Shown here piece after piece: positions 22,128-39,271 of a stretch of DNA of 46,467 bases. Source of the stretch: a virus. Under the pieces are notes generated by a model that did not search any database, was not told the origin of the DNA, and worked only from the letters and a program-made list of their open reading frames with translations. The DNA lies in the IMG/VR virus record IMGVR_UViG_3300031951_021455, positions 1 to 46,467 of that record; one strand, written 5' to 3'. How positions within the stretch are numbered: the first letter of the stretch is position 1; the number at the start of each line of letters is the position of its first letter. The position numbers and the translations under genes are program-made.

Positions 22128-23198
22128 ATGATTAAAAAGTTTAATCAGTTTATTAAAGAATCTTCACAAGACGGTGTTTTATTATACTATGCTTTTGACT
22201 GGGATGATAATATTCTAAGAATGCCAACTATGATTCGATTGGAACAAAAGGTTGGAGAACAATGGATTCCAACTGATGTATCAACTGCAGAATTTGCAGA
22301 AGTAAGAAATGATAAACAAAACTGGAGATTTTTAAATCAGAGCGGTGATGAGGCTTTTGCTAACTTTAGAGATACTGGTCCTAAGGGAGGTGAAGTTTTT
22401 TTAGAAGATGTCAAAATTGCTGTTTCTTCAGGAAGATTCGCTCCGGCTTGGGAAGATTTTTTAGAGTGTCTTTCCAATGGATCACTTTTTGCTATTATAA
22501 CGGCTCGTGGTCATGAATCCGAAACAATGAGAAGAGGTGTTGAGTGGATTATTGATAATGTATTGACCGAAGAACAACTATATAATATGTACAATAATCT
22601 ATTAAAGTTCTCCTATTTTTATGATATATCTACAGGGTCAGATAGAATACTAAGAGGAGTTCCTTCACAAAATGAATTATTTAAGTTATACTTAGATAAT
22701 TGTGATTTTGTGGGTGTTTCTGCCCCGTCGAGAGGCGGAACTCCAGATAATCCCGAAAAAGCTAAAGAAGAAACTTTGTTACAATTTAAGTCAAAGATAG
22801 ATAGATTTGCGGGTCAATTAGGTATGAAAGCGATGATTGGGTTTTCTGACGATGATTTAGGAAACGTATCTCACATCGAAGATTTAGCTGATAAGTTAAA
22901 TCATGAGGAGTTTCCTAACATAATTAAGTTTGTAGTTAAAGGTACAAAAGATCCAGAAAATATTACAAAGAAAGTAACAATGATGGGTGGTGTTACCGAA
23001 ACCTCAAATCAAACTCCTGGACTTGAAAATTCGGTTTTAACAGCTACTCAATTTGGAAATATGACAAGTAGATTAAATCCAAGTGGTCCTTTAAATAGAC
23101 AAGACGACTTTTTTAACCAATTTCAAAATCAAGTCAAATATTTGTCAAAAACATCAAAAGAAATATTAAAAAATAAAAAAAGAAAGTCCTCTAAATAA
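22128..23198 (+). CDS. HAD-superfamily phosphatase-like protein with capsid-targeting-like N-terminus
   Basis: A 356-residue protein. HAD motifs: YAFDWDDNIL (motif I, nucleophile Asp at about 25 and Asp at about 27), FAIITARGHE (motif II Thr about 125), and GFSDDDLGNV (motif IV acidic pair about 241). Large insertions separate motifs I and II, and the last ~80 residues are unassigned, ending in a Lys-rich tail. HAD enzymes transfer phosphoryl groups from small molecules, proteins or nucleic acid ends. The first 15 residues, MIKKFNQFIKESSQD, resemble the T4 internal-protein targeting peptide, including an Ile-x-Glu site. The stop codon lies inside a terminator stem. It is 3 nt after the acidic gene. 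Confidence 0.75.
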   Translation: MIKKFNQFIKESSQDGVLLYYAFDWDDNILRMPTMIRLEQKVGEQWIPTDVSTAEFAEVRNDKQNWRFLNQSGDEAFANFRDTGPKGGEVFLEDVKIAVSSGRFAPAWEDFLECLSNGSLFAIITARGHESETMRRGVEWIIDNVLTEEQLYNMYNNLLKFSYFYDISTGSDRILRGVPSQNELFKLYLDNCDFVGVSAPSRGGTPDNPEKAKEETLLQFKSKIDRFAGQLGMKAMIGFSDDDLGNVSHIEDLADKLNHEEFPNIIKFVVKGTKDPENITKKVTMMGGVTETSNQTPGLENSVLTATQFGNMTSRLNPSGPLNRQDDFFNQFQNQVKYLSKTSKEILKNKKRKSSK

Positions 23199-23210
23199 GA
23201 GGACTTTTTT
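23183..23210. terminator. Bidirectional hairpin terminator
   Basis: AAAGTCCTCT at 23183-23192 pairs exactly with AGAGGACTTT at 23198-23207 (5-nt loop), with A-run before and T-run after. It overlaps the stop codon of the HAD gene and serves the convergent gene ending at 23209. Confidence 0.85.
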
Positions 23211-23445
23211 ATTTATCAGTTATTTTATTTATCTTTAAATCTCTCTCAATTGCTTGTTCATTTTGGAAATACCAAGCTCTAAAATCACAAGCATAATAAA
23301 TGAATTCTTTTACCGACCCGTCTTCGTTTGTTTCTGCCTGACAAGTGCTTCCAAACATAAATTGGTTAAAACTTTCTCTCCACTCTATTGGTATTTGAGA
23401 CTCTCTCACATCAACATTGGCTTCGTATAATTCTTTTAGTGTCAT
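23209..23445 (-). CDS. Small hypothetical protein
   Basis: A 78-residue protein starting at ATG 23445 (an upstream TTG would add three residues). Not recognised. It is acidic and contains IPIEWRESFNQFMFGSTC and a YYACDFRAWYFQNEQAIE segment; the aromatic-rich C-terminus suggests a small folded domain. It is transcribed leftward from a region that also holds the promoter-like element of primase on the other strand, and it ends at the bidirectional terminator after the HAD gene. Just upstream is TATATTTG, matching the Bacteroidota -7 consensus TAnnTTTG rather than the phage decamer. Confidence 0.6.
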   Translation of the reverse strand: MTLKELYEANVDVRESQIPIEWRESFNQFMFGSTCQAETNEDGSVKEFIYYACDFRAWYFQNEQAIERDLKINKITDK

Positions 23446-23451
23446 AATAAA

Positions 23452-23459
23452 CAAATATA
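23452..23459 (-). promoter_or_regulatory. Host-type Bacteroidota -7 promoter motif
   Basis: TATATTTG fits the TAnnTTTG consensus of Bacteroidota sigma factors, 6 nt before the ATG at 23445. No clear -33 element was seen. Confidence 0.3.
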
Positions 23460-23491
23460 CTTATTTTATATTAAAACTCCTAATAGTTTTC

Positions 23492-23501
23492 ATAATATAT
23501 C
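23492..23501 (+). promoter_or_regulatory. ATAATATATC promoter-like element, short-spacer class
   Basis: Two mismatches to TTAATATATA, 5 nt before the ATG at 23507. It supports that codon as the primase start. Confidence 0.4.
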
Positions 23502-23506
23502 ATGTG

Positions 23507-24700
23507 ATGGATAAGATTTATATAAAAAATATAATTCAATCAGTGTTAAATAAAGAATTTTCTTCCAAAGGAAGAAGAAAGTTAATTGAATATACTGATA
23601 GATTAAACGTTTGCTGTCCATATTGTGGTGACGGTAAATCAGAATTTAAAAAAAGAGGAAATCTATATCTTAATCGTCTTATTTATATTTGTTTTAATTG
23701 TGATAAAAAAACAACTTTAGATAAGTTTTGTAAAGATTTTAACGAGCAAATTGATCCTGATAAAAAGTTGGAAATGATAGAACACTTAAACAGTGTTATG
23801 ACTTATTCTGATTATGAAGGTGACTTTGTTGATGCTAAATTCGATGACCTTATAGACTTATCTGAATTAGAAAGAGTTTTTTCTCAAGATTTAACACCTA
23901 TTTCTGATTTTAAGCCAATTCAAGTAAATGGCGGAGTTTATAAATATCTAATAGGTAGAGGAATACCAGCCGAGTTTCATAAAAATATCTATCAAGCAAA
24001 GTTTTGGAAAAATGAAGATGAACATGAATGGATAATTGTTATGTTAAATCGCAGAGATGATAAAGTATTGGGTCTTCAAATAAGAAACTTAAAAGAAGGA
24101 AAACGCAGAATGTTTAAAATTTATAACTATGAAAACCTTATTGAATGGATTAATTTAGGAAAAGATACAGATAGTGAATTGGATATAAATCAATTAGTTG
24201 TCTATAATAAACTATCCTATTATTTTAATATTTTAAATATTAATTTTGGTGATACAATAACGGTATTTGAGGGTTATTTGGACTCATTGTTTTTTCCTAA
24301 TTCTATTGGACTAGTTGGTGTAAATACCGACTATAGATTTTTAGAAAATAATGATTTAGATATTCAATATTTTTTTGATAATGATGAAGCTGGTTACAAA
24401 AAGTCTGAAGAAAAAATTAAAGAGGGATATCCTGTTTTTTTATGGAAAAAACTTTTTGAAGATATAGTAGAAAAGAAAAAAGTAGATGATCCTTATGCTT
24501 TACTTCATAGAATTTCTAAAGTTAAAGATATTAATAAATTATCTACATTAGTTGATAATCCACATAAAAAATTAGAATTGAATAATTTCTTTTCTAAAGA
24601 TGTTTTAGATTTAAAATGGATTCCGAAATTTAAAAGGAAAAAAAATAAAATAGAAGAGATTGATTATAATAAAAAATTTGACGGTCTAAAATATCTTTAA
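23507..24700 (+). CDS. 61: DNA primase, T4 gp61-like (zinc ribbon plus TOPRIM)
   Basis: A 397-residue primase. Residues about 35-65 form the zinc ribbon (CCPYCGDGK, then CFNCDKKTT). The TOPRIM core starts at about 250: ITVFEGYLDSLFFPNSIGL supplies the catalytic Glu, and YFFDNDEAGYKK at about 287-298 the Asp-x-Asp metal site. A Lys-rich tail follows. T4 gp61 makes RNA primers with the gp41 helicase for lagging-strand synthesis. ATG 23507 is chosen because a promoter-like element lies 5 nt upstream and the 30 extra residues of the longer frame are hydrophobic and unlike a primase. The end overlaps the convergent HNH gene by 4 nt. Confidence 0.85.
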   Translation: MDKIYIKNIIQSVLNKEFSSKGRRKLIEYTDRLNVCCPYCGDGKSEFKKRGNLYLNRLIYICFNCDKKTTLDKFCKDFNEQIDPDKKLEMIEHLNSVMTYSDYEGDFVDAKFDDLIDLSELERVFSQDLTPISDFKPIQVNGGVYKYLIGRGIPAEFHKNIYQAKFWKNEDEHEWIIVMLNRRDDKVLGLQIRNLKEGKRRMFKIYNYENLIEWINLGKDTDSELDINQLVVYNKLSYYFNILNINFGDTITVFEGYLDSLFFPNSIGLVGVNTDYRFLENNDLDIQYFFDNDEAGYKKSEEKIKEGYPVFLWKKLFEDIVEKKKVDDPYALLHRISKVKDINKLSTLVDNPHKKLELNNFFSKDVLDLKWIPKFKRKKNKIEEIDYNKKFDGLKYL

Positions 24701-25161
24701 ATGAAGTGTTTTAATTTATATTCGTTTTTTATTGATAAATAGTATTTAAAATCTAAATTTCCTCTTTCATTGTTACAGTCTTTACAACAGACAACTAAAT
24801 TAACTTGAGCATTGTTACCTCCTTCAGAAATAGGAATAATATGGTCAGCTGTCGCATTATCCATTGTTAGTTTAGTATCACAGTAAAGGCACTTAGCGTC
24901 TTCGTTTTGCTCAACAAATTCTTTTGCAAAACCTGAAGTTCTTCTTCTTACATTTTTCCCATTATACTTCAATCCAACAACTACAAAATCTTCTAAAACT
25001 TTGAATTTTCTTCTAAAAATCTCAACGGATTTGTAGTTTTTGTTTATTTTAACAGCTGCTATAATAAGGTATTTCCACCTTTTGTAAGTTTTCTTATCAA
25101 CTGATAAAAAATGTGAATCTTTTGATGTCGATAAAAACTTTAAAACTTTTATTAGTCTCAT
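24697..25161 (-). CDS. HNH endonuclease
   Basis: A 154-residue protein with a complete HNH domain: CLYCDTKL (first Cys pair), ATADHIIPISEGGNN (His-His and Asn region) and NLVVCCKDCNNERGN (second Cys pair with the terminal Asn). HNH domains nick or cut DNA using a single metal ion; free-standing phage examples include homing nucleases and packaging-associated nucleases. The N-terminal ~85 residues are Lys-rich and may contact DNA. Its own promoter-like element (TCAATATATA) lies 6 nt upstream. Being free-standing beside primase it could be a homing endonuclease, but no intron or insertion footprint is visible in primase. Confidence 0.8.
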   Translation of the reverse strand: MRLIKVLKFLSTSKDSHFLSVDKKTYKRWKYLIIAAVKINKNYKSVEIFRRKFKVLEDFVVVGLKYNGKNVRRRTSGFAKEFVEQNEDAKCLYCDTKLTMDNATADHIIPISEGGNNAQVNLVVCCKDCNNERGNLDFKYYLSIKNEYKLKHFI

Positions 25162-25167
25162 CAGAGT

Positions 25168-25177
25168 TATATATTGA
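25168..25177 (-). promoter_or_regulatory. TCAATATATA promoter-like element, short-spacer class
   Basis: One mismatch to consensus, 6 nt before the ATG of the HNH gene. Confidence 0.45.
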
Positions 25178-25196
25178 CAAAATTGACTTTCCCTAA

Positions 25197-25206
25197 GGAA
25201 TATATA
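25197..25206 (+). promoter_or_regulatory. GGAATATATA promoter-like element, long-spacer class
   Basis: Two mismatches to consensus, 18 nt before the ATG at 25225. It falls inside a longer open frame starting at 25174, favouring 25225 as the true start. Confidence 0.4.
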
Positions 25207-25224
25207 AAAGAAAAAATAATCACT

Positions 25225-25533
25225 ATGGCAAACAAAAAAGAAGTAGAACCATCTACAGAAACTGGAAAAAAATTGTTTTTTGGATGGGGAAATATCAAAT
25301 GGGGAATTAAAGAATTAATAAAGATCTATTCAGCGAAAGACTCTTATTTTTCAAAGAAAAGAATTGAGTCTGGAGCGGCTTTTCTTATCGCTCAATGGGG
25401 TATGATATTTTTTCTTTTAGAAAAACATTCAACATTAACTATGGGTGAATTCTTACTTTGGGCGGCGGCTGAATTTGCAGTCTCTGGTTATATCATTAAC
25501 AAGATTCAGAAAGAAAAACAGGTTGAACAATAA
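25225..25533 (+). CDS. Two-helix membrane protein, holin candidate
   Basis: A 102-residue protein. Residues 1-45 are polar and Lys-rich; about 50-66 (GAAFLIAQWGMIFFLLE) and about 72-93 (TMGEFLLWAAAEFAVSGYII) are membrane helices separated by a short loop; a charged KIQKEKQVEQ tail follows. Size, two closely spaced helices and charged ends fit a class II holin, which would let lysin cross the inner membrane. Evidence is topology only. The nearest lysin gene is 10 kb away, but a tiny lipoprotein gene converges on it and shares its terminator. ATG 25225 is preferred over the ATG 17 codons upstream because of the promoter-like element between them. Confidence 0.55.
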   Translation: MANKKEVEPSTETGKKLFFGWGNIKWGIKELIKIYSAKDSYFSKKRIESGAAFLIAQWGMIFFLLEKHSTLTMGEFLLWAAAEFAVSGYIINKIQKEKQVEQ

Positions 25534-25545
25534 AAAATTATTCAC

Positions 25546-25580
25546 AAAAAAAAGACCATCAAATTTGATGGTCTTTTTTT
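25546..25580. terminator. Bidirectional hairpin terminator
   Basis: A 26-bp perfect palindrome, 25551-25576 (arms AAAGACCATCAAA / TTTGATGGTCTTT), flanked by A-run and T-run. It separates the holin candidate from the small lipoprotein gene, whose stop codon lies inside it. Confidence 0.9.
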
Positions 25581-25678
25581 ATTTCTAATTTTGTATATGC
25601 GTCGCATTTAGTATGTTTAGAAGTTTTACAAGATATTGTAATTGTGCTTAAGATTGCGATTAATATTATTTTTTTCAT
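25559..25678 (-). CDS. Tiny lipoprotein, possible outer-membrane spanin (Rz1-like)
   Basis: A 39-residue frame with a classical lipoprotein signal: MKKIILIAILSTITISC, with Lys-Lys, a hydrophobic core and lipidated Cys at residue 17. The mature part is only 23 residues, starting CKTSKHTKCDAY. Small lipoproteins with a KHxxCDAY-type sequence are, from memory, common in Bacteroidota genomes. Its ATG overlaps the stop of the preceding gene as ATGA, and the stop codon lies in the terminator stem, both signs of a real gene. Position opposite a holin candidate suggests a lysis-related role such as an o-spanin, but it could be a host-acquired envelope protein. Confidence 0.7.
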   Translation of the reverse strand: MKKIILIAILSTITISCKTSKHTKCDAYTKLEIKKDHQI

Positions 25679-26169
25679 CTTTTGTTTTTTCTTCTAGTAC
25701 TTTTGTAACTTTTTGATTCAAATTGCTCGCCAGAGTCGATAATTTCTTCATCTTTTAAAGATGTCATTTCATCTTTGACTTCTTGTTTTTGTCCAGAAGC
25801 TGTTGATTGACTTCCTAAGTTAGCTAAAACATCTTCCGGTGTGGTAAAATATTTTTTTACACCTTTGATATGATATTTTTCTGTTTCTGCTGGAAATGTT
25901 ACCTCTTTTCCATCAATTACAACTGATTTTTGACCAGGTGTGAAATCAACTCCAGCAGCATCTGCTAAAGTTTGAAGTGCTATTTCATATTTATCAGTAG
26001 CTACTTCTTCTTCTTCACCTTCAAACTCTGCTTCCATTTCGGATGGTCGATTGATAGGTGGTCTTCCACCTAAAGACGGTAGATCTCTTACAGGAGCTTC
26101 TAATTCAGGTTCCATTCCTAAATCTTCGTTTAATTTACCTTTTACAAATTGATTATATCTTTTAATCAT
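25675..26169 (-). CDS. Hypothetical protein with capsid-targeting-like N-terminus
   Basis: A 164-residue, mostly disordered protein. The first 16 residues, MIKRYNQFVKGKLNED, match the shared Met-basic-aromatic-x-x-Phe segment, with a Leu-x-Glu site. Residues about 17-60 are Pro/Glu-rich; about 60-115 could fold (YEIALQTLADAAGVDF, a predicted strand pair in SVVIDGKEVTFP, then YHIKGVKKYFTTPEDVLANL). The last 15 residues are basic (YKSTRRKNKR end). Its promoter-like element is 19 nt upstream and the downstream lipoprotein gene is translationally coupled. Function unknown. Confidence 0.65.
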   Translation of the reverse strand: MIKRYNQFVKGKLNEDLGMEPELEAPVRDLPSLGGRPPINRPSEMEAEFEGEEEEVATDKYEIALQTLADAAGVDFTPGQKSVVIDGKEVTFPAETEKYHIKGVKKYFTTPEDVLANLGSQSTASGQKQEVKDEMTSLKDEEIIDSGEQFESKSYKSTRRKNKR

Positions 26170-26188
26170 TTTAATTTTTATTTTTTTG

Positions 26189-26198
26189 TATATATAAA
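26189..26198 (-). promoter_or_regulatory. TTTATATATA promoter-like element, long-spacer class
   Basis: One mismatch to consensus, 19 nt before the ATG at 26169. Confidence 0.4.
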
Positions 26199-26207
26199 AT
26201 TTTGAAA

Positions 26208-26723
26208 TTAATCTTTTTGTTCTAATTCAGAAACAACATAATCTAAAAAAGAGTCTAATTCATACTCCAGTCCATTACAAAACTCAAATACGTCATAATT
26301 ATCTTGAGATTTTGAATCTTTTTGTATTGAATAGAAATCTGGAGATATCTGTCCATTCTCAAAGACAACTATTCTTCCTTCCAATCTTCCTTCAATTCTT
26401 TTACCATTTGGCCAAACTAAATCTGGAACATAAAGTGTTCCTATATAGTGTAATTCATCACCATAGTCTTCGCAATAATCAAACTCAAATTTAAAAAAAC
26501 CATTATCGTCTTCAAATGTATTTTCAGTTTCTGATTTTGCCAATTTATCATGTAATTCTTCTTCTTTGCCTATTTTATGTGAGTCTAAAAATTCTTTTTC
26601 TAATGGAGTAAGCGATTTTATTCCATACTTAGAAATTTTATCTAAGATGTCATCCGTTCTTTCTTTGGATGTATATCCTTCATATCTCATTAAGTGCTTC
26701 ATAGTATGTTTATCACTTCTCAT
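26208..26723 (-). CDS. Hypothetical protein, shared N-terminal motif
   Basis: A 171-residue acidic protein. Residues 8-21 (MKHLMRYEGYTSKE) resemble the shared aromatic N-terminal motif, so the second Met (base 26702) may be the actual start; that would place the promoter-like element 26 nt upstream instead of 5. Residues about 25-52 (DILDKISKYGIKSLTPLEKEFLDSH) resemble the short helical element found at the C-terminus of Bacteroidota rhomboid proteins (DUF6576 type). The C-terminal ~110 residues look like a beta-rich globular domain (FKFEFDYCED, LHYIGTLYVPDLVWP, GRLEGRIVVFENG). Function unknown. Confidence 0.6.
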   Translation of the reverse strand: MRSDKHTMKHLMRYEGYTSKERTDDILDKISKYGIKSLTPLEKEFLDSHKIGKEEELHDKLAKSETENTFEDDNGFFKFEFDYCEDYGDELHYIGTLYVPDLVWPNGKRIEGRLEGRIVVFENGQISPDFYSIQKDSKSQDNYDVFEFCNGLEYELDSFLDYVVSELEQKD

Positions 26724-26728
26724 TAAGG

Positions 26729-26738
26729 TATATATTTA
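26729..26738 (-). promoter_or_regulatory. TAAATATATA promoter-like element
   Basis: One mismatch to consensus; 5 nt before ATG 26723 or 26 nt before the alternative ATG 26702. Confidence 0.4.
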
Positions 26739-27128: not shown

Positions 27129-27345
27129 CGAAAATATCATCTATTTTTTTATCTCTTATTTCTGTTTTCATAAGTTCTATTATCATATCATTGAAAGTTT
27201 CATCATTTTCTATTCTAACTTTAAAATCATCAAAAGATGTTTTACTTATTTTTAAAAGAGACCATTTACCCCTACTTATTTGTGATTCATTTAATCTCCA
27301 ATCTAAATAAGTTACATATTCTTTATATAATTCTTCATTTTTCAT
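27115..27345 (-). CDS. Small hypothetical protein
   Basis: A 76-residue charged, mainly helical protein (YVTYLDWRLNESQISRGKW, then FDDFKVRIENDETFNDMIIELM). No family recognised. It is the first gene of a two-gene leftward unit and overlaps the next start. Its promoter-like element (TTGATATATA) sits 4 nt upstream and is back to back with that of the rightward gene at 27378, within a 32-nt gap. Confidence 0.6.
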   Translation of the reverse strand: MKNEELYKEYVTYLDWRLNESQISRGKWSLLKISKTSFDDFKVRIENDETFNDMIIELMKTEIRDKKIDDIFDDFN

Positions 27346-27349
27346 AAAT

Positions 27350-27362: not shown

Positions 27363-27372
27363 TTAATATATA
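27363..27372 (+). promoter_or_regulatory. TTAATATATA promoter-like element, short-spacer class
   Basis: Exact decamer, 5 nt before the ATG at 27378; only 3 nt from the divergent element. Confidence 0.55.
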
Positions 27373-27377
27373 CCCCT

Positions 27378-28076
27378 ATGAATCGAATAAAGAAATGGTC
27401 TAGTTTTTATGAGTCTTTACAAACTCCTTTAACAGAGATTGAAAAAGATGAAATTGGAACAGCATTAATATTCGCTTGTAGAAGCGTGTGGGGTTATATA
27501 AATACTTATTTTGTAAGTAATCATGGATTAAAAATTAGGGGTGAAATTTTGAGATTATCAAAAAATAATAGACTTCTAATTGATTATGTTAATAGTATCT
27601 CGCCTTCAAATACAATTTTTGATTTAGTTGAGTGGATTTCAAAAAATCAAAACGAACTATATCATCCAAATGGTCAATATTTCGATAAAGTAATTAAAAT
27701 ATTGACCAATTCTTATAATCGTGGTAGAAGTTTAGAAGAAAAAGCTAAAGATGTTTTAATTGAATATTTTGACTCCACTGGTGTTGTAATTAATCCCTTT
27801 AAACCAAAAAGAGAAAGAGACGAACAAGGTTATGATTTATTTTGGAAAATAAACCAAGGTATTGAATCCGCTCAAATTAAAACTTTAGATAATTTCTCAA
27901 CGGGTAAGACTAGAGACTTTATTCGATGTAAAGGTCATTTGAAAAAACTTGTTACTAACTATTTAGTTGCTATCAATGATTTTGAGTGTTATATTTATAA
28001 AACCTATAACCATCAATTTACATCTGAATACTTTAGTTTTCCTAAATCTAATTTACTTTATCATAAAGTTTTTTAA
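27378..28076 (+). CDS. PD-(D/E)XK nuclease-like protein, shared N-terminal motif
   Basis: A 232-residue protein. The first 15 residues, MNRIKKWSSFYESLQ, match the shared basic/aromatic N-terminal motif. The C-terminal half has the order expected for restriction-endonuclease-fold nucleases: a helix with Glu (LEEKAKDVLIEYF, about 119-131), GYDLFWKI (Asp at about 153) and ESAQIKTLDNF (Gln-x-Lys at about 165-167). The Gln in place of Glu in the last motif is a known variant. A following basic segment (GKTRDFIRCKGHLKKL) could bind DNA. Assignment is by motif order only. Its end overlaps the convergent polymerase gene by 4 nt. Confidence 0.6.
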   Translation: MNRIKKWSSFYESLQTPLTEIEKDEIGTALIFACRSVWGYINTYFVSNHGLKIRGEILRLSKNNRLLIDYVNSISPSNTIFDLVEWISKNQNELYHPNGQYFDKVIKILTNSYNRGRSLEEKAKDVLIEYFDSTGVVINPFKPKRERDEQGYDLFWKINQGIESAQIKTLDNFSTGKTRDFIRCKGHLKKLVTNYLVAINDFECYIYKTYNHQFTSEYFSFPKSNLLYHKVF

Positions 28077-31502: not shown

Positions 31503-32048
31503 ATGAAAAAAATAAAATTATTCAGAGAGTTCATTGAAAATAGCGACAATGTTATTGATGCTAAGATGCAAGAATTAAAAGACCTTATCGATGGTCTTTC
31601 TGATAATAGTATCATTTATGAGTGGGAAAATAAGTCTGATCACGAGGTGGTTGTAAATTTTACAAAAGATGATTTATCTATAAGGTATGAATTTGATATA
31701 GATCAAATGTATGTAGCAAAGTTTGTTGGTGATACTACTGATTTTCAAACTTATGTGGATTCTATTGATGAAGGGCTAGATATTATTGAAAAAGACATTC
31801 AAGGAATTTTGGGAATATCCGAAAGAGTTAAAGCACAAAAGTATAAAGGCCGTAAAATTCCAGGAAAATATTTAACTAAAAATCCTGGTAAAATGAAGAA
31901 AGAAATTGACACATTTAGAGGAAAAAAAGAGTATAAAAAAGACTGGGATGCTGATTACTCGTCTGGTAAAGGAGGTGAGGGTAAAAGAGTTAAAACTAAA
32001 AAATCAGCAGCAACTAAAGCATACCAAAAAATGTTTGGAAATAAATAA
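31503..32048 (+). CDS. Basic-tailed hypothetical protein, shared N-terminal motif
   Basis: A 181-residue protein. It opens MKKIKLFREFIENSD, the shared basic/aromatic motif. Residues about 15-100 form an acidic alpha/beta region (IIYEWENKSDHEVVVNFTKD). Residues about 110-181 are rich in Lys and Gly: GRKIPGKYLTKNPGKMKKEI, then WDADYSSGKGGEGKR and KKSAATKAYQKMFGNK. This late segment looks conserved-family-like and probably contacts nucleic acid. It is 13 nt before the gene at 32062, which carries the same type of N-terminus, in one rightward unit. No enzymatic function recognised. Confidence 0.65.
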   Translation: MKKIKLFREFIENSDNVIDAKMQELKDLIDGLSDNSIIYEWENKSDHEVVVNFTKDDLSIRYEFDIDQMYVAKFVGDTTDFQTYVDSIDEGLDIIEKDIQGILGISERVKAQKYKGRKIPGKYLTKNPGKMKKEIDTFRGKKEYKKDWDADYSSGKGGEGKRVKTKKSAATKAYQKMFGNK

Positions 32049-32061: not shown

Positions 32062-32760
32062 ATGAGATACTTAAAAACATTTGAGAGTTTTAGAGAACCA
32101 TTAAATAGAGAAGAAATGATTGAGACTCTTTCTTCAACATCTACATTCGAAAGAGAAGAACTTGAGGCAATGACTGATGATGAATTAGAGGAGTTATTCC
32201 ATTCCTTAGAAACCGAAGATTGGATATCTGAATTAGACAGAGAATCTACTAGTGATGAAAATTGGATAGGAGGACCTTACAACCCAAGAGAGGAAGAAGA
32301 AGGTGATTATTACGAGTCTTATACATTTGAGGATTTTACACATGCTGATATGGAAGATGTTAGAGAACTTTTAGAAATGGGTCTTACTGAAGATCAAATT
32401 GCAATTGAGTTGGATTTGGAAGTTTATGTTGTTAAACAAATTATCGATACTATAAATAAACATGGTAGTGTTTCTGATGAATTAGAAGGATTGGATGAAT
32501 CTAAAAAGTCTGGAGTAACCGCTTCTCTTAAAAAGAAATCAAAAGCTTCTGGAATTCCTGTTGGTATTTTAAGAAAAGTTTTTTCTAAAGGAATGCAAGC
32601 TTGGAATGCTGGTCATAGACCAGGGGTTGCTCAACATCAATGGGGAATGGGTAGAGTTAATTCATTCATTACTGGCGCTGGTGGAGCAAGAAAAGCAGAC
32701 GCTGATTTATGGACAAAAGCAAAAGCTGCTAAAGCAAGAAAGAAGAAAAGAAAGAAGTAA
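32062..32760 (+). CDS. Putative DNA-binding protein with shared N-terminal module
   Basis: A 232-residue protein. ATG 32062 is chosen; the longer frame upstream lies inside the preceding gene in another frame. Residues 1-55 (MRYLKTFESFREPLNREEM, then an acidic ELEAMTDDELEELF helix) match the first 50 residues of the protein at 36767. Residues about 85-135 contain a helix-turn-helix-like segment (LLEMGLTEDQIAIELDLE, VVKQIIDTINKHG). The C-terminal ~80 residues (ASGIPVGILRKVFSKGMQAW, GHRPGVAQHQWGMGRVNSF) resemble a conserved phage domain I recall as DUF5824-like, and the end is extremely Lys-rich. Nucleic-acid binding is inferred; the role is unknown. Confidence 0.7.
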   Translation: MRYLKTFESFREPLNREEMIETLSSTSTFEREELEAMTDDELEELFHSLETEDWISELDRESTSDENWIGGPYNPREEEEGDYYESYTFEDFTHADMEDVRELLEMGLTEDQIAIELDLEVYVVKQIIDTINKHGSVSDELEGLDESKKSGVTASLKKKSKASGIPVGILRKVFSKGMQAWNAGHRPGVAQHQWGMGRVNSFITGAGGARKADADLWTKAKAAKARKKKRKK

Positions 32761-33133: not shown

Positions 33134-33143
33134 ATAATATATA
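33134..33143 (+). promoter_or_regulatory. ATAATATATA promoter-like element, short-spacer class
   Basis: One mismatch to consensus, 7 nt before the ATG at 33151, within the 26-nt divergent gap. Confidence 0.45.
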
Positions 33144-33150: not shown

Positions 33151-34269
33151 ATGATAACAAAATACGATGGTTTTATATTAGAAAAACTAAAGTTTGAAAT
33201 CTTTTCTCTTTTAGAAGGTCGAGTTTATAGCACGACTGATTTTTTATTTAAATTAAAATCATTAGTAAAACAACCAGGTAAAGTAGGTGAAATTGCCGAT
33301 CAAATATTAGATATAATAGAGAGTGAGCAGTATTTCCCAGATGATAAAATTAAACAAAACTATTTTGATTTAGTTGATTCTGAAGATATGGTTGGGTTTA
33401 TAAATCAATCAAAGGTAAATTCTAAAAAAGATGAAATTTATGATAATCCTAATTTTCCTTATACAATGCCCGGCAGAGGTGAGGTAAAAATTGGTAAAAT
33501 TGTAAATTATATTTGTTCTTTAAGAGGAATTAACGTGAGTGATTCTGATAGAGAGTCTTTTGTAAATTCTTGGAAAGCTTCTACGGAAGTATCAACGATT
33601 CAATTCAAATTAGTATCTGGTGAAGATATTGCAAAATATTATGATGAAAATAAATATTACAGTCGAAAAGGAACTTTAGGAAGTTCTTGTATGAGAGATG
33701 AAGGTAAAAGAACTTTTAAGATTTATACTGAAAATCCAGATAAAGTAAAACTTCTTATTTATGTTGATTCTGATGATAAAATTCATGGAAGAGCTCTTGT
33801 CTGGAAGGTTAAAAAATCACCTTGTGATTCTAAATACTTTATGGATAGAGTTTATGCTAACCGAGATTCGGATGTTAATAGATTTAAACAATTTGCGGAT
33901 ACAGAAGGTTGGTTTTATAAGAAAGTTATTTCATCACATGATAGTGATAGCGTTCGTTTCATTTATAAAGGCGAAGAAGTATCCGGTGAAGTTAAATTAA
34001 AGTTAAAAGGCGACTTTAATATGTATCCTTATGTTGATACTATGTGTTTTTTAAGTAAAGATAAAGATAGTTTGTCTAATTTATCTGACAAAAATTGTTA
34101 TTACTTACATAGTGTTTATGGTGAAAGAGAAAGATGTGAAGATTGTGAAGGTGATGTTATCACAACAAACTGGGACGGTGATAAAGTGTTATGTTCTGAA
34201 TGTTCATCAGGTCACCAAGCTCTAAAAGATCTGCGTATCGAAACTAAATGGAATAAAAAAGTCGATTAA
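33151..34269 (+). CDS. Conserved-type phage protein with GTLGSSCM motif and C-terminal zinc ribbon
   Basis: A 372-residue protein. The N-terminus (MITKYDGFILEKLKFE) fits the shared motif loosely, with an Ile-Leu-Glu site. The centre carries motifs I recognise from uncharacterised phage proteins: KLVSGEDIAKYYDEN, SRKGTLGSSCMRDE (about 171-184), FKIYTENPDKVKLLIYVD, GRALVWKV, FMDRVYAN and FKQFADTEGWFYK. Residues about 330-352 (CEDCEGD, then CSECS) form a zinc ribbon. The invariant-looking Cys in GTLGSSCM and the surrounding basic residues suggest a catalytic or nucleic-acid-binding site, but no reaction is known to me. Its end overlaps the convergent UvsY-like gene by 4 nt. Confidence 0.7.
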   Translation: MITKYDGFILEKLKFEIFSLLEGRVYSTTDFLFKLKSLVKQPGKVGEIADQILDIIESEQYFPDDKIKQNYFDLVDSEDMVGFINQSKVNSKKDEIYDNPNFPYTMPGRGEVKIGKIVNYICSLRGINVSDSDRESFVNSWKASTEVSTIQFKLVSGEDIAKYYDENKYYSRKGTLGSSCMRDEGKRTFKIYTENPDKVKLLIYVDSDDKIHGRALVWKVKKSPCDSKYFMDRVYANRDSDVNRFKQFADTEGWFYKKVISSHDSDSVRFIYKGEEVSGEVKLKLKGDFNMYPYVDTMCFLSKDKDSLSNLSDKNCYYLHSVYGERERCEDCEGDVITTNWDGDKVLCSECSSGHQALKDLRIETKWNKKVD

Positions 34270-34760
34270 CGACCTAAATAATTCATCAATTCAATCATAT
34301 TCTTAATTGAATAACTTAAACTTTCTAGATTCTTTGTGGTGTCTCTTAAGAATTCGATATAAGATTCAATAAGTTCAAGACTTCTATCATTTTCAGCTAA
34401 ATGGCCATCAATTAAGATTCCTTTTTCTCCTAGGTTTGTTTTAACACCAAATCCTGTTGCATAAAATATAAATTTATCTTGTCTAAGTCTCTTAATCTTA
34501 GTTGTTTCTTTACTGCGTTTATTTAAGAAGAAATTAATTTGTTCGCTGATTGCTTGTCTATAAGACAGAGCCGATGATTGAGCTTCCATTATGTCCTTCG
34601 CGGAGGAAGGATTGGTTAAATCAACTCTTATTATTTTAAAGAGTGGTTCTACATTTTTGTTCCACTCGGATCTTTTGTCATTAAAGAACTCTTCTAATTT
34701 ATCGTTAGTTTCTTTAACTTTACCAATCCTATCGAATTCATCTTGGTTATACGGATTCAT
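34266..34760 (-). CDS. uvsY: UvsY-like recombination mediator candidate
   Basis: A 164-residue, largely helical protein close to T4 UvsY in size (137) and pattern. A long helix with Lys/Arg residues (NFFLNKRSKETTKIKRLRQD) is followed by FIFYATGFG, then a linker and an acidic amphipathic helix pair ending SIKNMIELMNYLGR, similar to UvsY's terminal Gly-Phe-x-Ile-Lys-x-hydrophobic block. UvsY loads UvsX recombinase onto gp32-coated single-stranded DNA. The resemblance is by eye and not strong. The start overlaps the end of the upstream gene by 14 nt. UvsW is also encoded in this window, so the recombination system is plausible. Confidence 0.5.
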   Translation of the reverse strand: MNPYNQDEFDRIGKVKETNDKLEEFFNDKRSEWNKNVEPLFKIIRVDLTNPSSAKDIMEAQSSALSYRQAISEQINFFLNKRSKETTKIKRLRQDKFIFYATGFGVKTNLGEKGILIDGHLAENDRSLELIESYIEFLRDTTKNLESLSYSIKNMIELMNYLGR

Positions 34761-35163
34761 CTTCTTTAAATATTTTTTTCATTTGTAATTCTCTATATAA
34801 ATTTTTATTATAACACTCATTAAGTGTTTTTTCAAAAACATCAACCACTCTTTCTTCTAAATTTTCATTTACAACGCTTTCTAATATTTTAGACCATTTT
34901 TCTAAAAGTATTTTGTCTTCAACAATAAGAGGGTGGTTTTCGTATCCTCCAAATATTTCTATACATCCGTTTCTATTATCAAATATAACTTCCATATTTT
35001 CTCTATATTGATATAACTGAGTTGATTTTTTTATTGGATCTTCATCGACTACAAAAGTTATGTAGTAGAATCTAAATCCATATTTCATTTTTTTTGATAC
35101 TGAGATTCTTTTGTCATCAATGTTGTCTAAAAAAAAATGTAAAAATTTATCTAACTTATCCAT
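34747..35163 (-). CDS. Hypothetical protein
   Basis: A 138-residue charged protein, first of a two-gene leftward unit with the UvsY-like gene (14-nt overlap). Pattern: an N-terminal helix (DKLDKFLHFFLDNIDD), strands (GFRFYYITFVVDEDP, MEVIFDNRNGCIEIFGG), then long helices (ILLEKWSKILESVVNENLEERV). No motif or family recognised. A weak TATA-like stretch lies upstream but no good match to the phage decamer, so its promoter is uncertain. Confidence 0.6.
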   Translation of the reverse strand: MDKLDKFLHFFLDNIDDKRISVSKKMKYGFRFYYITFVVDEDPIKKSTQLYQYRENMEVIFDNRNGCIEIFGGYENHPLIVEDKILLEKWSKILESVVNENLEERVVDVFEKTLNECYNKNLYRELQMKKIFKEDESV

Positions 35164-35237
35164 ACTGTCTAAAGTATTATATTTATTGAGACTGAAAAAA
35201 TCTCATAATGATTTTAGTAAAAATTTAGAAAATTGTT

Positions 35238-35247
35238 TTGATATATA
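35238..35247 (+). promoter_or_regulatory. TTGATATATA promoter-like element, long-spacer class
   Basis: One mismatch to consensus, 19 nt before the ATG of the lysin gene. Confidence 0.5.
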
Positions 35248-35266
35248 CTAAAAAAGAATAACTATT

Positions 35267-36001
35267 ATGAACATAACAATTGATTTATTAAAATCAGTCC
35301 TATCAAAAAAGGGCTACAAATGGTATACCGACAGACCAAATTTAATCGGAGTAAGAGCAACATTAGATGTTCCGGATTCATTTAACGACTTTTTTTGTCT
35401 TGCTTATCAAATACCCAAAATGGCTGATAATTTAGACCTAAAAGGTAAACAACAATTTCTTAACTCTTATGGATTCAAAGGTGCTAATGGGAAAACGTTA
35501 GCTGAGGATGGAGTAGCTGGTAAAAATACCGATTTCGCTTTAGCTGAGTATAGTAAAGTCGCTGGTCAAGAAGTTATTAAAATATTTCCCAACACAACTA
35601 ATCCGGGTGTTTATTGGCTAAATAACCCTATGAGTAAATTAGGAACAGCTATTCTTAAGCCAAATCAATGGGTTGATTGTTGGTCTTTAGGATTTCACCA
35701 ACAAAAAACAGACCACAGAGCTTTGGTTCAAACCGGAAAAGTTACGGTTTATAGAGATTCAAATAAGGATAACAATTATCAGTTGAATGAATCAAAAGTT
35801 GAGACTGGATTATTTGGTATTAATATTCACGGATCTAATAAAGCTGGTTCATCTGCAAAAATCGGTAAGTGGTCTGCTGGTTGTCAGGTATTTTCACATT
35901 GGCTTCATAAAGAAGAAGTTATGAATGTTTGTGAGAAGTTTAAAACTGTAACAAAAAACAAATTTACTTATACTCTTTTAGATGAAAAAGATTTATTCTA
36001 A
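35267..36001 (+). CDS. Endolysin-type protein with YkuD-like His/Cys motif
   Basis: A 244-residue soluble protein of a lysin family I associate with Bacteroidota phages. N-terminal LKSVLSKKGYKWY and LIGVRATLDVPDSFNDFFCLAY open the fold; about 58-95 (QQFLNSYGFKGANGKTLAED, then GKNTDFALAEY) resembles a peptidoglycan-binding insertion. The rest contains GVYWLNNPMSKLGTAILKPN, TVYRDSNKDN, FGINIHGSN (His at about 188) and KWSAGCQVF (Cys at about 206). The His and Cys follow the His-Gly-then-Ser-x-Gly-Cys layout of L,D-transpeptidase/YkuD catalytic centres. It most likely cuts peptidoglycan at lysis. No signal peptide, so it needs a holin. It is a single-gene unit with its own promoter-like element and terminator, and its catalytic region is paralogous to part of the spike at 9417. 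Confidence 0.7.
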   Translation: MNITIDLLKSVLSKKGYKWYTDRPNLIGVRATLDVPDSFNDFFCLAYQIPKMADNLDLKGKQQFLNSYGFKGANGKTLAEDGVAGKNTDFALAEYSKVAGQEVIKIFPNTTNPGVYWLNNPMSKLGTAILKPNQWVDCWSLGFHQQKTDHRALVQTGKVTVYRDSNKDNNYQLNESKVETGLFGINIHGSNKAGSSAKIGKWSAGCQVFSHWLHKEEVMNVCEKFKTVTKNKFTYTLLDEKDLF

Positions 36002-36004
36002 AAT

Positions 36005-36037
36005 AAAAAACCCAGTCATTTTGACTGGGTTTTTTTT
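36005..36037. terminator. Bidirectional hairpin terminator
   Basis: AACCCAGTCA at 36009-36018 pairs exactly with TGACTGGGTT at 36022-36031 (3-nt loop), A-run before, T-run after. It separates the lysin gene from the convergent gene ending at 36036. Confidence 0.88.
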
Positions 36038-36767
36038 ATTTAAAGTTTCCAAAACTTTTTATATTTTTCATTTCATCTTCTAAATCTTTATTAGCCAAAT
36101 GACTCTCGGTCTCTTCGTGTGATGGTTCATCATAATGATGATGTCCTTGGTCTTCAGATGGTACATCGTGACCAGCTAAGAAATTGAATACTTCCTCGAT
36201 ATCATCTTTAGATGTTGCAATATGATCTAATGCCCAGTTGTGACCATTTGATAATTTAGCATCAACTTCAGATTCATCCATTTCTAACATCTCATCAACT
36301 AATCTTTTAATTGTTTTTAAATTTCCAAAAAACATATAATTTTGTGTATTCTGGTGTTCTTTTAGTCCTTTAAGTGTTTTTGCTAAATTTAATTTTCTGT
36401 ATTTTGCTAAATCATTTTTAGAAAGACCTTGTACTCCTTTTTTCTTAGGATCTTTGTCTTTTCCTTTTAGAGCCTCTAGTTCGGAGTCAATTTCTTTCTT
36501 TGAAATTTTTTCTCCTTCTTTTTTGTCCATAGATTTTCTTAAAGATCCTGGATTTTTGATAGCGTCTTTAATCCATTTTTCTCCTTTCTTCTCCTGAGTC
36601 ATAGTGTTATTATTTATATAGTTTTCTTCCTCTGTTGCTCTACACATTTCTTCAAGTTCTTGATTTGAACATTCTTCGAGTTCGCTCATAGTATATCCAC
36701 ATCTGCAAAGAGCACTACACATTTCTTCTCTAGACATATAACTTTCAAATTTTTGAATAACTTTCAT
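36036..36767 (-). CDS. Hypothetical protein with shared N-terminal module and basic centre
   Basis: A 243-residue protein. Residues 1-50 (MKVIQKFESYMSREEMCSAL, then a Glu-rich SNQELEEMCRATEEE helix) match the module at the start of the protein at 32062. Residues about 62-130 are Lys-rich with WIKDAIKNPGSLRKSMDKKE, then RKLNLAKTLKGLKE, a pattern common in phage proteins and likely to bind nucleic acid. Residues about 140-200 are helical; a His-rich patch (GHHHYDEPSHEE) at about 208-219 may bind metal. The C-terminus KNIKSFGNFK again shows Phe-x-x-Phe. Promoter-like element 19 nt upstream. Function unknown. Confidence 0.65.
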   Translation of the reverse strand: MKVIQKFESYMSREEMCSALCRCGYTMSELEECSNQELEEMCRATEEENYINNNTMTQEKKGEKWIKDAIKNPGSLRKSMDKKEGEKISKKEIDSELEALKGKDKDPKKKGVQGLSKNDLAKYRKLNLAKTLKGLKEHQNTQNYMFFGNLKTIKRLVDEMLEMDESEVDAKLSNGHNWALDHIATSKDDIEEVFNFLAGHDVPSEDQGHHHYDEPSHEETESHLANKDLEDEMKNIKSFGNFK

Positions 36768-36786
36768 AATTTTGTTTTGTTTTTTG

Positions 36787-36796
36787 TATATATTAT
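36787..36796 (-). promoter_or_regulatory. ATAATATATA promoter-like element, long-spacer class
   Basis: One mismatch to consensus, 19 nt before the ATG at 36767, followed by a Thr/Lys-rich-looking A/C leader (ACAAAACAAAATT). Confidence 0.4.
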
Positions 36797-36800
36797 ATTA

Positions 36801-37955
36801 TTAAATCAGAATATTAACTACTTCAGGGTAGTATTTACTCATTTCTGGATTTTTATCAGAATAGTCTACTTTAGATATAACATATCTCATAGCGTTTAAC
36901 CTACCAATCTTTTTATCATTTGAGTTAATAATAACCCAAGGAGACAATCTAGATGAAGTTTGTTGAAACATCTGTCTTTTAAAGTTTCCAATAACTTCCC
37001 ATTTGTCTAATACTTTTGCGTCGTTTGGAGAGAACTTCCAATATTTAAGTGGTGATTTTTGTCTTAATTCAAATCTTTTAATTTGTTTATCTTGCGTAAT
37101 TGAGAACCAGAATTTTATAAGTATCAAACCATTTCTGATTTGTTTTTCTTCCCAATCTATAACTTTATCCATAAAGTCTTGATATTGTTCTTCTGTGCAA
37201 TATCCCATAGCTGGTTCAACAACTGCTCTATTGTACCAACTTCTATCAAAGAAAACTATTTCTCCTGAATTAGGCAAGTGTGTCTCATATCTTTGGAACC
37301 AATTGTTTTTTTCCTCATCAGTTGGAACACCTAGTGCTACAACTTTAAATCCTTTTGGATCCAAATATTCAACAAATCTTTTAATAGTTGATCCTTTACC
37401 TGCGGCATCTCTACCTTCAAATACAATTGCTACTTTTTTTCCGTTTGCCTTAACCCATTCTTGAAGTTTTAATAGTTCAACCTGTAATTGATATTTTTCA
37501 GATTCATATTGTCTTCTTCCTAAAATTGAACCTTCTCCTTCAAATTGGTCAAAATGATCTTCAGTTTTTCCTGTCTGATGTAATTGGTCAATTCTTACTT
37601 CTATTGACTTGTAGTAGTCATCAAAGGATTCTCTAACTTTTCTTTTAGTATTTCTTTTTTTAAGTTCTAATATTTGATTTAATTTTCTTAAAAATGCTTC
37701 TAAGTTTAATTCTTGAACAACTTCTTCTGTAAATTCATTAGTTAGTTCTCTTATCATTACTTTAATATCGATTGTTTCGAATTCTTTATACTCTACTTTA
37801 TTCGTTGTTAAATTATAATTGATGTTTGATAGAATAAATGTTCGATACTCATTTAATCTAAAAAGTAAATTTCTTTTTAGAGTATCTACTGAAGGTTTAT
37901 CCATGTCTTCAATCCATAATTCTTCTCTTATAAAGTTTGAAAATCTTTTTAACAT
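36801..37955 (-). CDS. ppk2: Polyphosphate kinase 2 (PPK2) with capsid-targeting-like N-terminus
   Basis: A 384-residue protein. The C-terminal ~230 residues are a PPK2 kinase domain: FEGRDAAGKGSTIKRF (Walker A, about 180-194), GVPTDEEKNNWFQRYETHLP, FFDRSWYNRAVVEP (Walker B, about 235-248), MGYCTEEQYQ, LIKFWFSI and LKYWKFSPNDAKVLDKW. Single-domain PPK2 enzymes of this size usually transfer phosphate between polyphosphate and ADP or GDP to make ATP or GTP. The N-terminal ~130 residues are an extension of helices beginning MLKRFSNFIREELWIED, the shared basic/aromatic motif with an Ile-x-Glu site. All catalytic motifs look intact. The start is 4 nt after TTAATATATA. PPK2 in a phage could draw on host polyphosphate to fuel replication. 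Confidence 0.9.
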   Translation of the reverse strand: MLKRFSNFIREELWIEDMDKPSVDTLKRNLLFRLNEYRTFILSNINYNLTTNKVEYKEFETIDIKVMIRELTNEFTEEVVQELNLEAFLRKLNQILELKKRNTKRKVRESFDDYYKSIEVRIDQLHQTGKTEDHFDQFEGEGSILGRRQYESEKYQLQVELLKLQEWVKANGKKVAIVFEGRDAAGKGSTIKRFVEYLDPKGFKVVALGVPTDEEKNNWFQRYETHLPNSGEIVFFDRSWYNRAVVEPAMGYCTEEQYQDFMDKVIDWEEKQIRNGLILIKFWFSITQDKQIKRFELRQKSPLKYWKFSPNDAKVLDKWEVIGNFKRQMFQQTSSRLSPWVIINSNDKKIGRLNAMRYVISKVDYSDKNPEMSKYYPEVVNILI

Positions 37956-37959
37956 GATT

Positions 37960-37969
37960 TATATATTAA
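37960..37969 (-). promoter_or_regulatory. TTAATATATA promoter-like element, short-spacer class
   Basis: Exact decamer, 4 nt before the ATG of the PPK2 gene. Confidence 0.55.
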
Positions 37970-37983
37970 AATTATAAATGAAT

Positions 37984-38886
37984 TTATACTTTCTTATCAA
38001 AAAGGTAAAGATCATATACTGAATTACCCTTCACATTTTTAATACTTTTCAGTACTTTTCCTGTTATTGAGTCTAATACTTTGAATACTCCTAGATTTTG
38101 ATTCTTATCTGTAGTAACTTTTACGGTGTTTCCTGGTTGGCCGAGAGCTCCTAAAATCGCTACATATTTAGTTCCATATACACTTTTAAGAAAAGATAAT
38201 CTCAGTCCTTCTGTATCTTTTAAGTTATTAATATAGGAGTTTTCTAAGGCATTTTTCAAATCTAATTGAGTTCCGGTTTCTTTAACAACAATTGAAGCAA
38301 ATTTTCTTTCCTCTGCTCCCATTTCCACTTCTTCTCTATTTTGAATTTTATTTTGATTCACTAAGTTTTGTTGGTTTCTTCTAATCTCATTAAAGTCAGC
38401 TCGTGTTATGATTCCACCACGCATTCCCTTATCATTCATATTATATCCAGAAGGAGGTAATCTATAAAAAGAACCTGTAAAGGTCATAGAAAGTATTCTA
38501 TCTGTTCTAAAAAGTCTCCAAATTTTATTTATATGTCTTCTTTGAGATACTGACCATCCATTTAAATGCCATCCTCTTAGTAACGTTTTGCCTTTTGATG
38601 AGCGTCCTAAAACCATTGGATAAATTACTCTTTCGTGACCTGCAAAATGTTTGTCTTCTTCTCCCTTATAGTTAATTAAAAAGATCATTCCATACTTTAT
38701 CGCCTTTGACATTAAATCATCTGAATATTTAATAGGTTTATTAATTGGAATATTATTGATATCCTTTACATTCTTTAAGGAAAATCTTGGAATAAACTCT
38801 TGATTCTCTATCAAATCATAATGTTCTTTAATTACAAATTCTACAGGTTTTTTATTATAAAAGTCTTTTAATTGCTTTAAGTTCAT
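37984..38886 (-). CDS. Hypothetical protein with WYL-like region
   Basis: A 300-residue protein. ATG 38886 is preferred because a TTAATATATA decamer is 5 nt upstream of it, within a longer open frame. Residues about 55-145 (IKYGMIFLINYKGE, RVIYPMVLGRSSKGKTLLRGWHL, KIWRLFRTDRILSM, FYRLPPSGYNMNDKGM) resemble WYL-type ligand-sensing domains in which a strand pair precedes an Arg-rich helix, but no WYL triad is present. The C-terminus (about 200-300) is Lys/Thr-rich with predicted strands. Such domains act in regulation or DNA-damage response. Assignment is tentative. It ends 28 nt upstream of the PPK2 start. Confidence 0.6.
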   Translation of the reverse strand: MNLKQLKDFYNKKPVEFVIKEHYDLIENQEFIPRFSLKNVKDINNIPINKPIKYSDDLMSKAIKYGMIFLINYKGEEDKHFAGHERVIYPMVLGRSSKGKTLLRGWHLNGWSVSQRRHINKIWRLFRTDRILSMTFTGSFYRLPPSGYNMNDKGMRGGIITRADFNEIRRNQQNLVNQNKIQNREEVEMGAEERKFASIVVKETGTQLDLKNALENSYINNLKDTEGLRLSFLKSVYGTKYVAILGALGQPGNTVKVTTDKNQNLGVFKVLDSITGKVLKSIKNVKGNSVYDLYLFDKKV

Positions 38887-38891
38887 GTAAT

Positions 38892-38901
38892 TATATATTA
38901 A
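38892..38901 (-). promoter_or_regulatory. TTAATATATA promoter-like element, short-spacer class
   Basis: Exact decamer, 5 nt before the ATG at 38886. Confidence 0.55.
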
Positions 38902-38946
38902 TATATCATTCTCTAAATTCAATATGAAAAAATAATAAAAATAAAA

Positions 38947-38956
38947 TTTATATATA
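38947..38956 (+). promoter_or_regulatory. TTTATATATA promoter-like element, short-spacer class
   Basis: One mismatch to consensus, 6 nt before the ATG at 38963. Confidence 0.45.
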
Positions 38957-38962
38957 GATAGT

Positions 38963-39271
38963 ATGAAGTATATCAGGAAATTTGAAACTTTTGATTTTAG
39001 TCAAACGCTACCAGTCGCATCAAAGGCTGACTTAACACTTTATTATCATTGTGATGAGTGTAATGCTCTTTGGAAACAACTTAATCAAGAATCCAATGAT
39101 TGTAAATTTTGCCAATCTAACGAAATTGAGGAGTTAAGTAAAGACGAGTGGTATGAAACTGTTGGTGATAGACTAGAAGAAGATGATTTTCAGGATTTAG
39201 AATCCGAGAGAGCTAAAGATGAAGATGACTTTATAGATTTATATAAATTAAATAAAGGAAATGTCAATTAA
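38963..39271 (+). CDS. Small zinc-ribbon protein, shared N-terminal motif
   Basis: A 102-residue protein. It opens MKYIRKFETFDFSQT, the shared basic/aromatic motif. A compact zinc ribbon follows: YYHCDECNALW (about 28-38) and DCKFCQSNEIEEL (about 46-58) give two Cys-x-x-Cys pairs. The C-terminal 40 residues are very acidic (DRLEEDDFQDLESERAKDED). Zinc ribbons of this size bind nucleic acid or polymerases. It is the first of a two-gene rightward unit; the next gene starts inside its last codons (11-nt overlap). Confidence 0.65.
   Translation: MKYIRKFETFDFSQTLPVASKADLTLYYHCDECNALWKQLNQESNDCKFCQSNEIEELSKDEWYETVGDRLEEDDFQDLESERAKDEDDFIDLYKLNKGNVN

Follow-up and report, generated by a model that had tools for sequence, protein, structure and literature searches.

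A T4-type capsid-targeting tag as the probable source of a shared N-terminal segment in Mahaphage-like megaphages

Why should ten proteins that are otherwise unrelated begin with the same short segment? The question is raised by a 46,467-nucleotide stretch of viral DNA (IMG/VR record IMGVR_UViG_3300031951_021455; the whole stretch is referred to below as the window), for which a preliminary description likened these N-termini to the capsid-targeting sequence (CTS) of the phage T4 internal proteins and proposed that their bearers are virion cargo. All ten N-termini are present at the places described, and we propose that they probably belong to a greatly expanded T4-type CTS system, in which the N-terminal tag mimics a repeat of the prohead scaffold.

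The window comes from a T4-type megaphage of Mahaphage-like character and covers part of its genome. It is contained whole, in reverse, in IMG/VR contig 3300008117_008509 (G002, 121,804 bp), and its UvsW-like helicase (18883–20499) shows 81% identity to those of LR745206.1 (634,780 bp) and LR756502.1 (642,428 bp), 52% to that of LR756504.1 and 44% to that of LR756501.1 (735,411 bp). The largest genomes of Al-Shayeb et al. 2020 all fall in the Mahaphage clade, with Bacteroidetes predicted as hosts (PMC7162821). Below, LR745206, LR756502, LR756504, LR756501 and LR756500 are abbreviated W01 to W05 in that order. Genome-scale counts are from the four whole records W01, W03, W04 and W05 (462–735 kb), with genes taken as simple longest open reading frame (ORF) calls and with gene starts set by simple rules, which applies to all tag counts.

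The N-terminal tag, its scale and its likeness to T4

The segment occurs in two forms. Form A reads aromatic-x-x-aromatic-[ILV]-x-E, and form B reads MKYLKxF/Y-xx-F, often with F-E. A two-class position weight model, trained on the N-termini of W01 alone and used at a threshold of 6.9, accepts nine of the ten window tags with scores of 13.0–28.6; the tenth, on the protein starting at 36767, scores 4.0 and passes with the W03 model at 14.2. When the N-termini of the 45 window genes are shuffled, a mean of 0.6 matches is seen, with a maximum of 3 in 300 trials. With two-class models the tagged proteins number 161 of 921 in W01, 87 of 912 in W03, 152 of 1001 in W04 and 57 of 667 in W05, where shuffled N-termini lead us to expect 9.3, 8.3, 8.0 and 6.8 respectively. 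A fixed pattern that needs no training, [FYWH]xx[FYWH][ILVM]xE, finds 27, 24, 53 and 23 N-termini in the same records, where its density inside proteins predicts 2.3–3.9; in W02 it finds 29, with 3.9 predicted. By the shuffle control the motif is far more frequent than chance in all four whole records, and we reject a chance origin of the tag on the shuffles together with the internal-position controls. The dialect of the tag differs from phage to phage (for example MKYIKEYEEFLNEA in W05 and MIKKYNTYINEG in W04), and tagged genes adjoin each other above shuffle expectation. We see no expansion of the tag in the outgroups Tenacibaculum phage PTm1, the first 140 kb of RaK2 and 40 kb of S-PM2. 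A C-terminal version of the tag was rejected as a general rule, the density of the core motif near C-termini being about that of the background.

Mutagenesis of the T4 IPIII tag assigned residues 4 and 7 to targeting and residues 8 and 10 to processing (review PMC9026906). Form A conserves all four of these positions, with an aromatic residue at 0 and +3, Ile, Leu or Val at +4 and Glu at +6; conservation is weak past +7, and the residues most common after the Glu are Ser, Ala and Asn. The first aromatic lies at residues 3–9, mostly 5–7, and so within the first 10–20 residues. In form A, as in the principal sets of form B, most residues at 0 and +3 (the equivalents of T4 Tyr4 and Phe7) are aromatic. 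The equivalents of Ile8 and Glu10 are mostly lacking in form B, whereas 148 proteins of form A have Glu at +6, mostly with Ile, Leu or Val at +4. About half of the tags are of this second form without a canonical cleavage site. The predicted T4-type site is, as a rule, confined to form A, and tags of form B may be cleaved at another place or not at all. Among the window proteins, four had been said to carry Ile/Leu-x-Glu at the T4 position; this holds for IKE, IRE and ILE, but the LNE of the protein starting at 26169 lies four residues later.

What we regard as the strongest single argument for the CTS reading is that models trained on megaphage N-termini alone recognise the internal proteins of T4. 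The form A models of W01, W04 and W05 place gp61.1, ipII and ipIII as the top three of 265 T4 proteins, the W03 form A model ranks them fifth or better, and ipI is accepted too by the full W01 model. In these tests T4 gp61.1 (MKTFKEFIKE; T4 18966–19130) scores equally with the known internal proteins, and it is possibly an unrecognised T4 internal protein.

The proteins behind the tag are, as had been claimed, unrelated. The tag also behaves as a module. An RNA ligase is tagged in W01 (MKLFKYIEFINENSKNEYSIPSYEE) and W02 (MKKLHRYNSFIKES...RIPTYEE) and untagged in W03, where it starts MIEKFHIPSYEE, and in W04, where it starts MNKYYIPTYRE; other orthologues show a similar clean presence or absence. 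Both members of an orthologous pair are tagged in 17 cases against 3.3 expected. Orthologues can also differ in which form they carry, A or B (W01 MKYILSKKIFEN and W02 MIIKRYNEFVFEN are one such case), which argues that both forms have the same job.

A protease–scaffold fusion with tag-like repeats

All five phage records contain the T4-type prohead protease domain PF03420, which matches above the cut-off in W05 (2.3e-12) and below it in the other four (4e-6 to 1e-4). The ORF that contains it lies directly upstream of the major capsid protein (MCP) gene where examined and is about 630–810 residues long, and its middle part consists of tandem 14-residue repeats such as NIAYSEYIAENLDK, which carry the anchor residues of the tag. 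In the phage from which the window derives, this fusion of protease and scaffold-like region has 697 residues and is encoded in G002 at 54730–56823 on the reverse strand. By a strict pattern the fusion holds 11–14 internal copies of the motif, the most of any protein in W01, W02, W03, W04, G001 and G002, and 56 distinct IMG/VR relatives have 10–17 copies, with 591 of 643 spacings exactly 14 residues (two heptads). The protease part aligns with T4 gp21, the neighbourhoods of His85 and Ser140 included, and H72 and S127/S128 are invariant in two protease alignments; we take these to be the catalytic residues of Peptidase S77 (T4 gp21). An AlphaFold prediction, made from an alignment of IMG/VR loci only and used here for this feature alone, gives residues 236–451 as a single long helix at modest confidence. 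A sequence search of the PDB with the fusion returned nothing useful.

Repeats of this kind are also seen outside the fusion: W01 encodes a free-standing protein of 83 residues (460435–460686, reverse strand) made almost only of scaffold-like repeats (MNYEDYIAESLEKNISYSEYISEN). W04 encodes a membrane-rich protein of 1691 residues (21458–26533, reverse strand), possibly a tape measure, in which seven copies of FVKY[IL]xE are spaced at intervals of about 60 residues. PTm1 has a protease ORF of similar size with different repeats.

A plausible route for the tagged proteins, which we infer from these features, involves packaging, scaffold binding, cleavage and injection. The cargo, synthesised late in infection, would dock on the prohead core by way of an amphipathic N-terminal helix displaying two aromatic residues three apart, followed by Ile, Leu or Val. 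The core itself probably consists of the scaffold-like part of the fusion, whose 14-residue repeats would show the same surface as the tag; each tag would therefore be equivalent to a single copy of the scaffold repeat. It is fairly likely that phages of the Mahaphage type load, by this means, dozens to more than 100 different enzymes and effectors into each virion, and that much of their accessory genome thereby serves as an injected protein toolkit.

Several observations weigh against this proposal. In W05 the repeats are degenerate (two strict copies, tied with other proteins) and the promoter-like element described below is weak. Profiles of the N-terminal tags place the scaffold repeats first among internal matches in W04 alone, and therefore the link between tag and repeat rests on the four anchor residues and not on the whole segment. 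The AlphaFold prediction of the fusion is poor overall (pLDDT 55.9). Form B, the majority form in W01 and W04, has a boundary [ILV]-x-E in just 24 of 110 cases in W01, 18 of 50 in W03 and 20 of 86 in W04. The tag counts perhaps include 7–9 false positives per genome, of which ribosomal L7/L12 in W04 is one. Finally, in the open literature we found no virion analysis of this megaphage clade.

Alternative explanations and the promoter-like element

The alternative that survives best, though we consider it improbable, is that the segment is a mere prohead-protease site on structural head proteins, these being parts of the shell or core and not cargo for the host. Such sites exist, as T4 gp23 has the motif (FGSFLTE, residues 59–65) at its known cleavage place and KVP40 gp22 has related motifs. 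However, around 150 families per genome are tagged, many of them enzymes, among which are Acb1, RNA ligase, CCA-adding enzyme, PPK2, Glu-tRNA synthetase and NUDIX proteins, and the tagged set is mostly accessory, with fewer between-phage homologues than untagged proteins in W01 and W05. Most tagged proteins have no family match, and a PHROG scan of those of W04 returned mostly families without function. The Acb1-like proteins, which act against the CBASS defence, are tagged in W01 (where the match falls below the family cut-off), W02 and W03, and untagged in T4. In a tagged protein of the SMODS-associated NUDIX type the domain starts at residue 16, immediately behind the tag, and the Glu-tRNA synthetase of W03 (263081–264682, forward strand) has YSDFLKES in an N-terminal extension before its catalytic domain. 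Under the CTS reading, some of this cargo (the anti-CBASS Acb1, RNA ligase, CCA-adding enzyme and PPK2) makes sense at cell entry. T4 Ip1–Ip3 inhibit type IV restriction enzymes (PMC12373910), and early counter-defence is therefore a natural role for tagged proteins.

It is unlikely, to a greater degree, that the segment addresses proteins to some other phage machine, such as ClpP, a degradation route or an assembly compartment. A ClpP gene does lie two genes away from the tagged HAD gene of the window, but this explanation accounts neither for the repeats of the fusion nor for the way the same models recognise T4 internal proteins.

A further alternative is suggested by the element TAATATATA, which precedes genes mostly in one orientation and at two sharply defined distances from the start codon (4–6 or 18–26 nt). 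Restricting the counts to leading genes with room for a promoter, we find it before 53 of 74 tagged and 59 of 369 untagged genes in W01 (Fisher P 9e-21), 28 of 62 and 46 of 466 in W03 (P 1e-10), and 32 of 64 and 72 of 362 in W04 (P 1e-6). It also stands, sometimes with one mismatch, before the portal-like, protease and MCP genes and, in the window, before a number of genes for tail and fibre-like proteins. It is likely to be the late promoter of the W01–W04 phages, unlike the TATAAATA of T4, for which we see no enrichment before tagged genes. As genes with TAATATATA are often nearly leaderless and have a favoured start region in common, the pattern in the proteins could be a by-product of transcription or translation, and 42 tagged W01 genes indeed have the element 4–9 nt before the ATG. 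Yet 32 untagged W01 genes share this arrangement, 95 tagged genes lack an exact TAATATATA within 45 nt, and T4 has the same tag without it. In addition, in 11 orthologue pairs, chosen as both matching the pattern, the anchors are identical in 10–11 whereas the neighbours at +1, +2, +5 and +7 are identical in 2–5. A leaderless-start artefact is very unlikely given the same spacing at untagged genes and the tagged genes without the element.

That the tagged proteins are paralogues with an inherited N-terminal domain is hardly credible: some small tagged families do occur, of up to 11 members (in W04), but stripping the tag from the 161 tagged proteins of W01 leaves 154 families, a clustering on which we reject a common domain, and the tag is gained and lost cleanly between orthologues.

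The expanded T4-type CTS reading thus retains the likeness to T4 put forward in the preliminary description: the anchors are those of the T4 mutagenesis, the models recognise T4 internal proteins, a prohead protease of the T4 family forms one protein with a scaffold-like region that repeats this motif, and tagged genes have their promoter-like element in common with virion genes.

Tagged genes of the window and relation to known systems

The highest score in the window (28.6) belongs to the form A tag MIKKFNQFIKES at 22128–22163 (+) on a HAD-like protein (gene 22128–23198). Orthologues of window proteins keep their tags, with letters that vary and anchors that stay; for the HAD-like protein these are MIKKFNQFLEN, MIKKFSRFIKES, MDILRFDQFIRES and, in W04, MKKLSNIKNFELFLNEN, and a W03 relative is without a tag. 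Form A tags are also carried by gene 25675–26169 (MIKRYNQFVKGK at 26134–26169, reverse strand, score 17.8; orthologues MIKRYNQFVKEN, MIKKYNQFVND and MAIIKKYNQYIKK), by gene 33151–34269 (MITKYDGFILE at 33151–33183, forward strand, 15.3; orthologues MITRYDGFLLE and MLTKYESFLLE) and by the PPK2 polyphosphate kinase gene 36801–37955 (E 9e-79; MLKRFSNFIRE at 37923–37955, reverse strand, 15.6). PPK2 tags include MLKRFSNFIREE, MINNFIKFINEE in W02, MISNYDNFMNES in W04 and VYNFHKFINEE in W01, and the tag is eroded in G001 (MNYKKILEE).

Form B tags are found on the DUF6576 protein (gene 26208–26702; MKHLMRYEGYTS at 26667–26702, reverse strand, 19.5), on the DUF5824 protein (gene 32062–32760; MRYLKTFESFRE at 32062–32097, forward strand, 24.3), on gene 36036–36767 (MKVIQKFESYMS at 36732–36767, reverse strand; orthologues MRLIKKFESYSQ in G001 and MENIKSFDSFNE in W02) and on a zinc-ribbon-like protein (gene 38963–39271; MKYIRKFETFDF at 38963–38998, forward strand, 22.8; W04 orthologue MRNLMDFKTFEAE). 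The first of these had been described as starting at 26723, and its tag does need the second Met (26702), at which the W02 orthologue MKHLMRYEGYGSQE starts. Similarly, the start at 32062 sits within a longer ORF, and the G001 orthologue MKYLRTYESFRE starts at the same Met; one W02 relative of this DUF5824 protein has a form A tag, NFGTFVNES. The remaining two tags are MNRIKKWSSFYES at 27378–27416 (forward strand, 13.0) on gene 27378–28076, nuclease-like by inspection only, and MKKIKLFREFIE at 31503–31538 (forward strand, 17.6) on gene 31503–32048, with orthologues MIKKWNQFIREF and MIKKWGDFIREF. For the nuclease-like protein, IMG/VR relatives are identical copies only, and a W01 relative starts MKKFTEYIKES, its alignment being limited to the C-terminal part. 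A DHH-family gene (374–2596, reverse strand) is likely to be an eleventh, degenerate case: its N-terminus MNIKDYRLFLGLESDEPINEE scores 10.0 with the W04 model and 3.3 with the W01 model, and its orthologues read MISKYNQFINEE and MLRKYGQFINEE, also given as MISKYNQFINEEVG and MLRKYGQFINEEVG.

Within the window TAATATATA lies ahead of tagged genes at 27364–27372 (forward strand, 5 nt), 33135–33143 (forward strand, 7 nt), 37960–37968 (reverse strand, 4 nt ahead of the PPK2 gene) and 36787–36795 (reverse strand, 19 nt). Directly upstream of the tagged HAD gene is a small, very acidic protein (21711–22124, forward strand) whose C-terminal tail LESFQSFINKK is a tag-like motif without the Glu. W01, W02 and G001 have the tail too, as LESFQSF[IV]NK, and in each of them the gene immediately precedes the tagged HAD gene; the protein is possibly a gp67-type core protein as in T4, with a motif that could not be cleaved. 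A phage-encoded ClpP (20951–21694, reverse strand) lies beside these two genes, and the neighbourhood is the same in W01, W02 and G001.

The herpesvirus assemblin and gpO of phage P2 combine maturation protease and scaffold in one chain; in the megaphage chain, by comparison, a T4-family protease is joined to a scaffold-like part that consists of arrayed tag-like repeats. The closest precedent is the CTS of T4 internal proteins I, II and III (Mullaney and Black 1996, reviewed in PMC9026906), with which the megaphage tag shares its place in the N-terminal 10–12 residues, the two aromatics three apart, in form A the [ILV]-x-Glu, the unrelatedness of the proteins that follow it, a prohead protease of the T4 family encoded in the genome and the recognition of the ip genes by the megaphage model. 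It differs in that three proteins are tagged in T4 and 57–161 per megaphage genome, in the second form without a canonical site, in the enzyme cargo and in the protease fused to a scaffold-like region that repeats the motif; packaging and cleavage in the megaphages are predictions from the sequence. The phiKZ-like giant phages SPN3US and 201phi2-1 likewise have heads with numerous proteins, of which several are cut after Glu by a prohead protease and delivered with the DNA (PMC5694885, PMC9026906), but their propeptides are mostly much longer (some 124–127 residues), fewer proteins are processed (8 of about 50 in SPN3US) and there is no confirmed gp22-type scaffold (PMC5694885). In open papers we found work on the T4 CTS and on phiKZ-type inner bodies and no report of an expanded tag in megaphages. 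The suggestion that the system is undescribed therefore does not stand as to its kind, because the three internal proteins of T4 precede it, although its scale and the link to scaffold repeats appear new.

For the largest known phages, the tag offers a sequence rule that picks, from hundreds of unknowns, the proteins likely to be active at the very start of infection, probable counter-defence proteins such as Acb1 homologues and RNA repair enzymes among them. It names a scaffold candidate for giant phages and suggests how a T4-type tag docks, namely by copying the scaffold repeat, and it suggests where much of the accessory content of a 600–700 kb genome is used.

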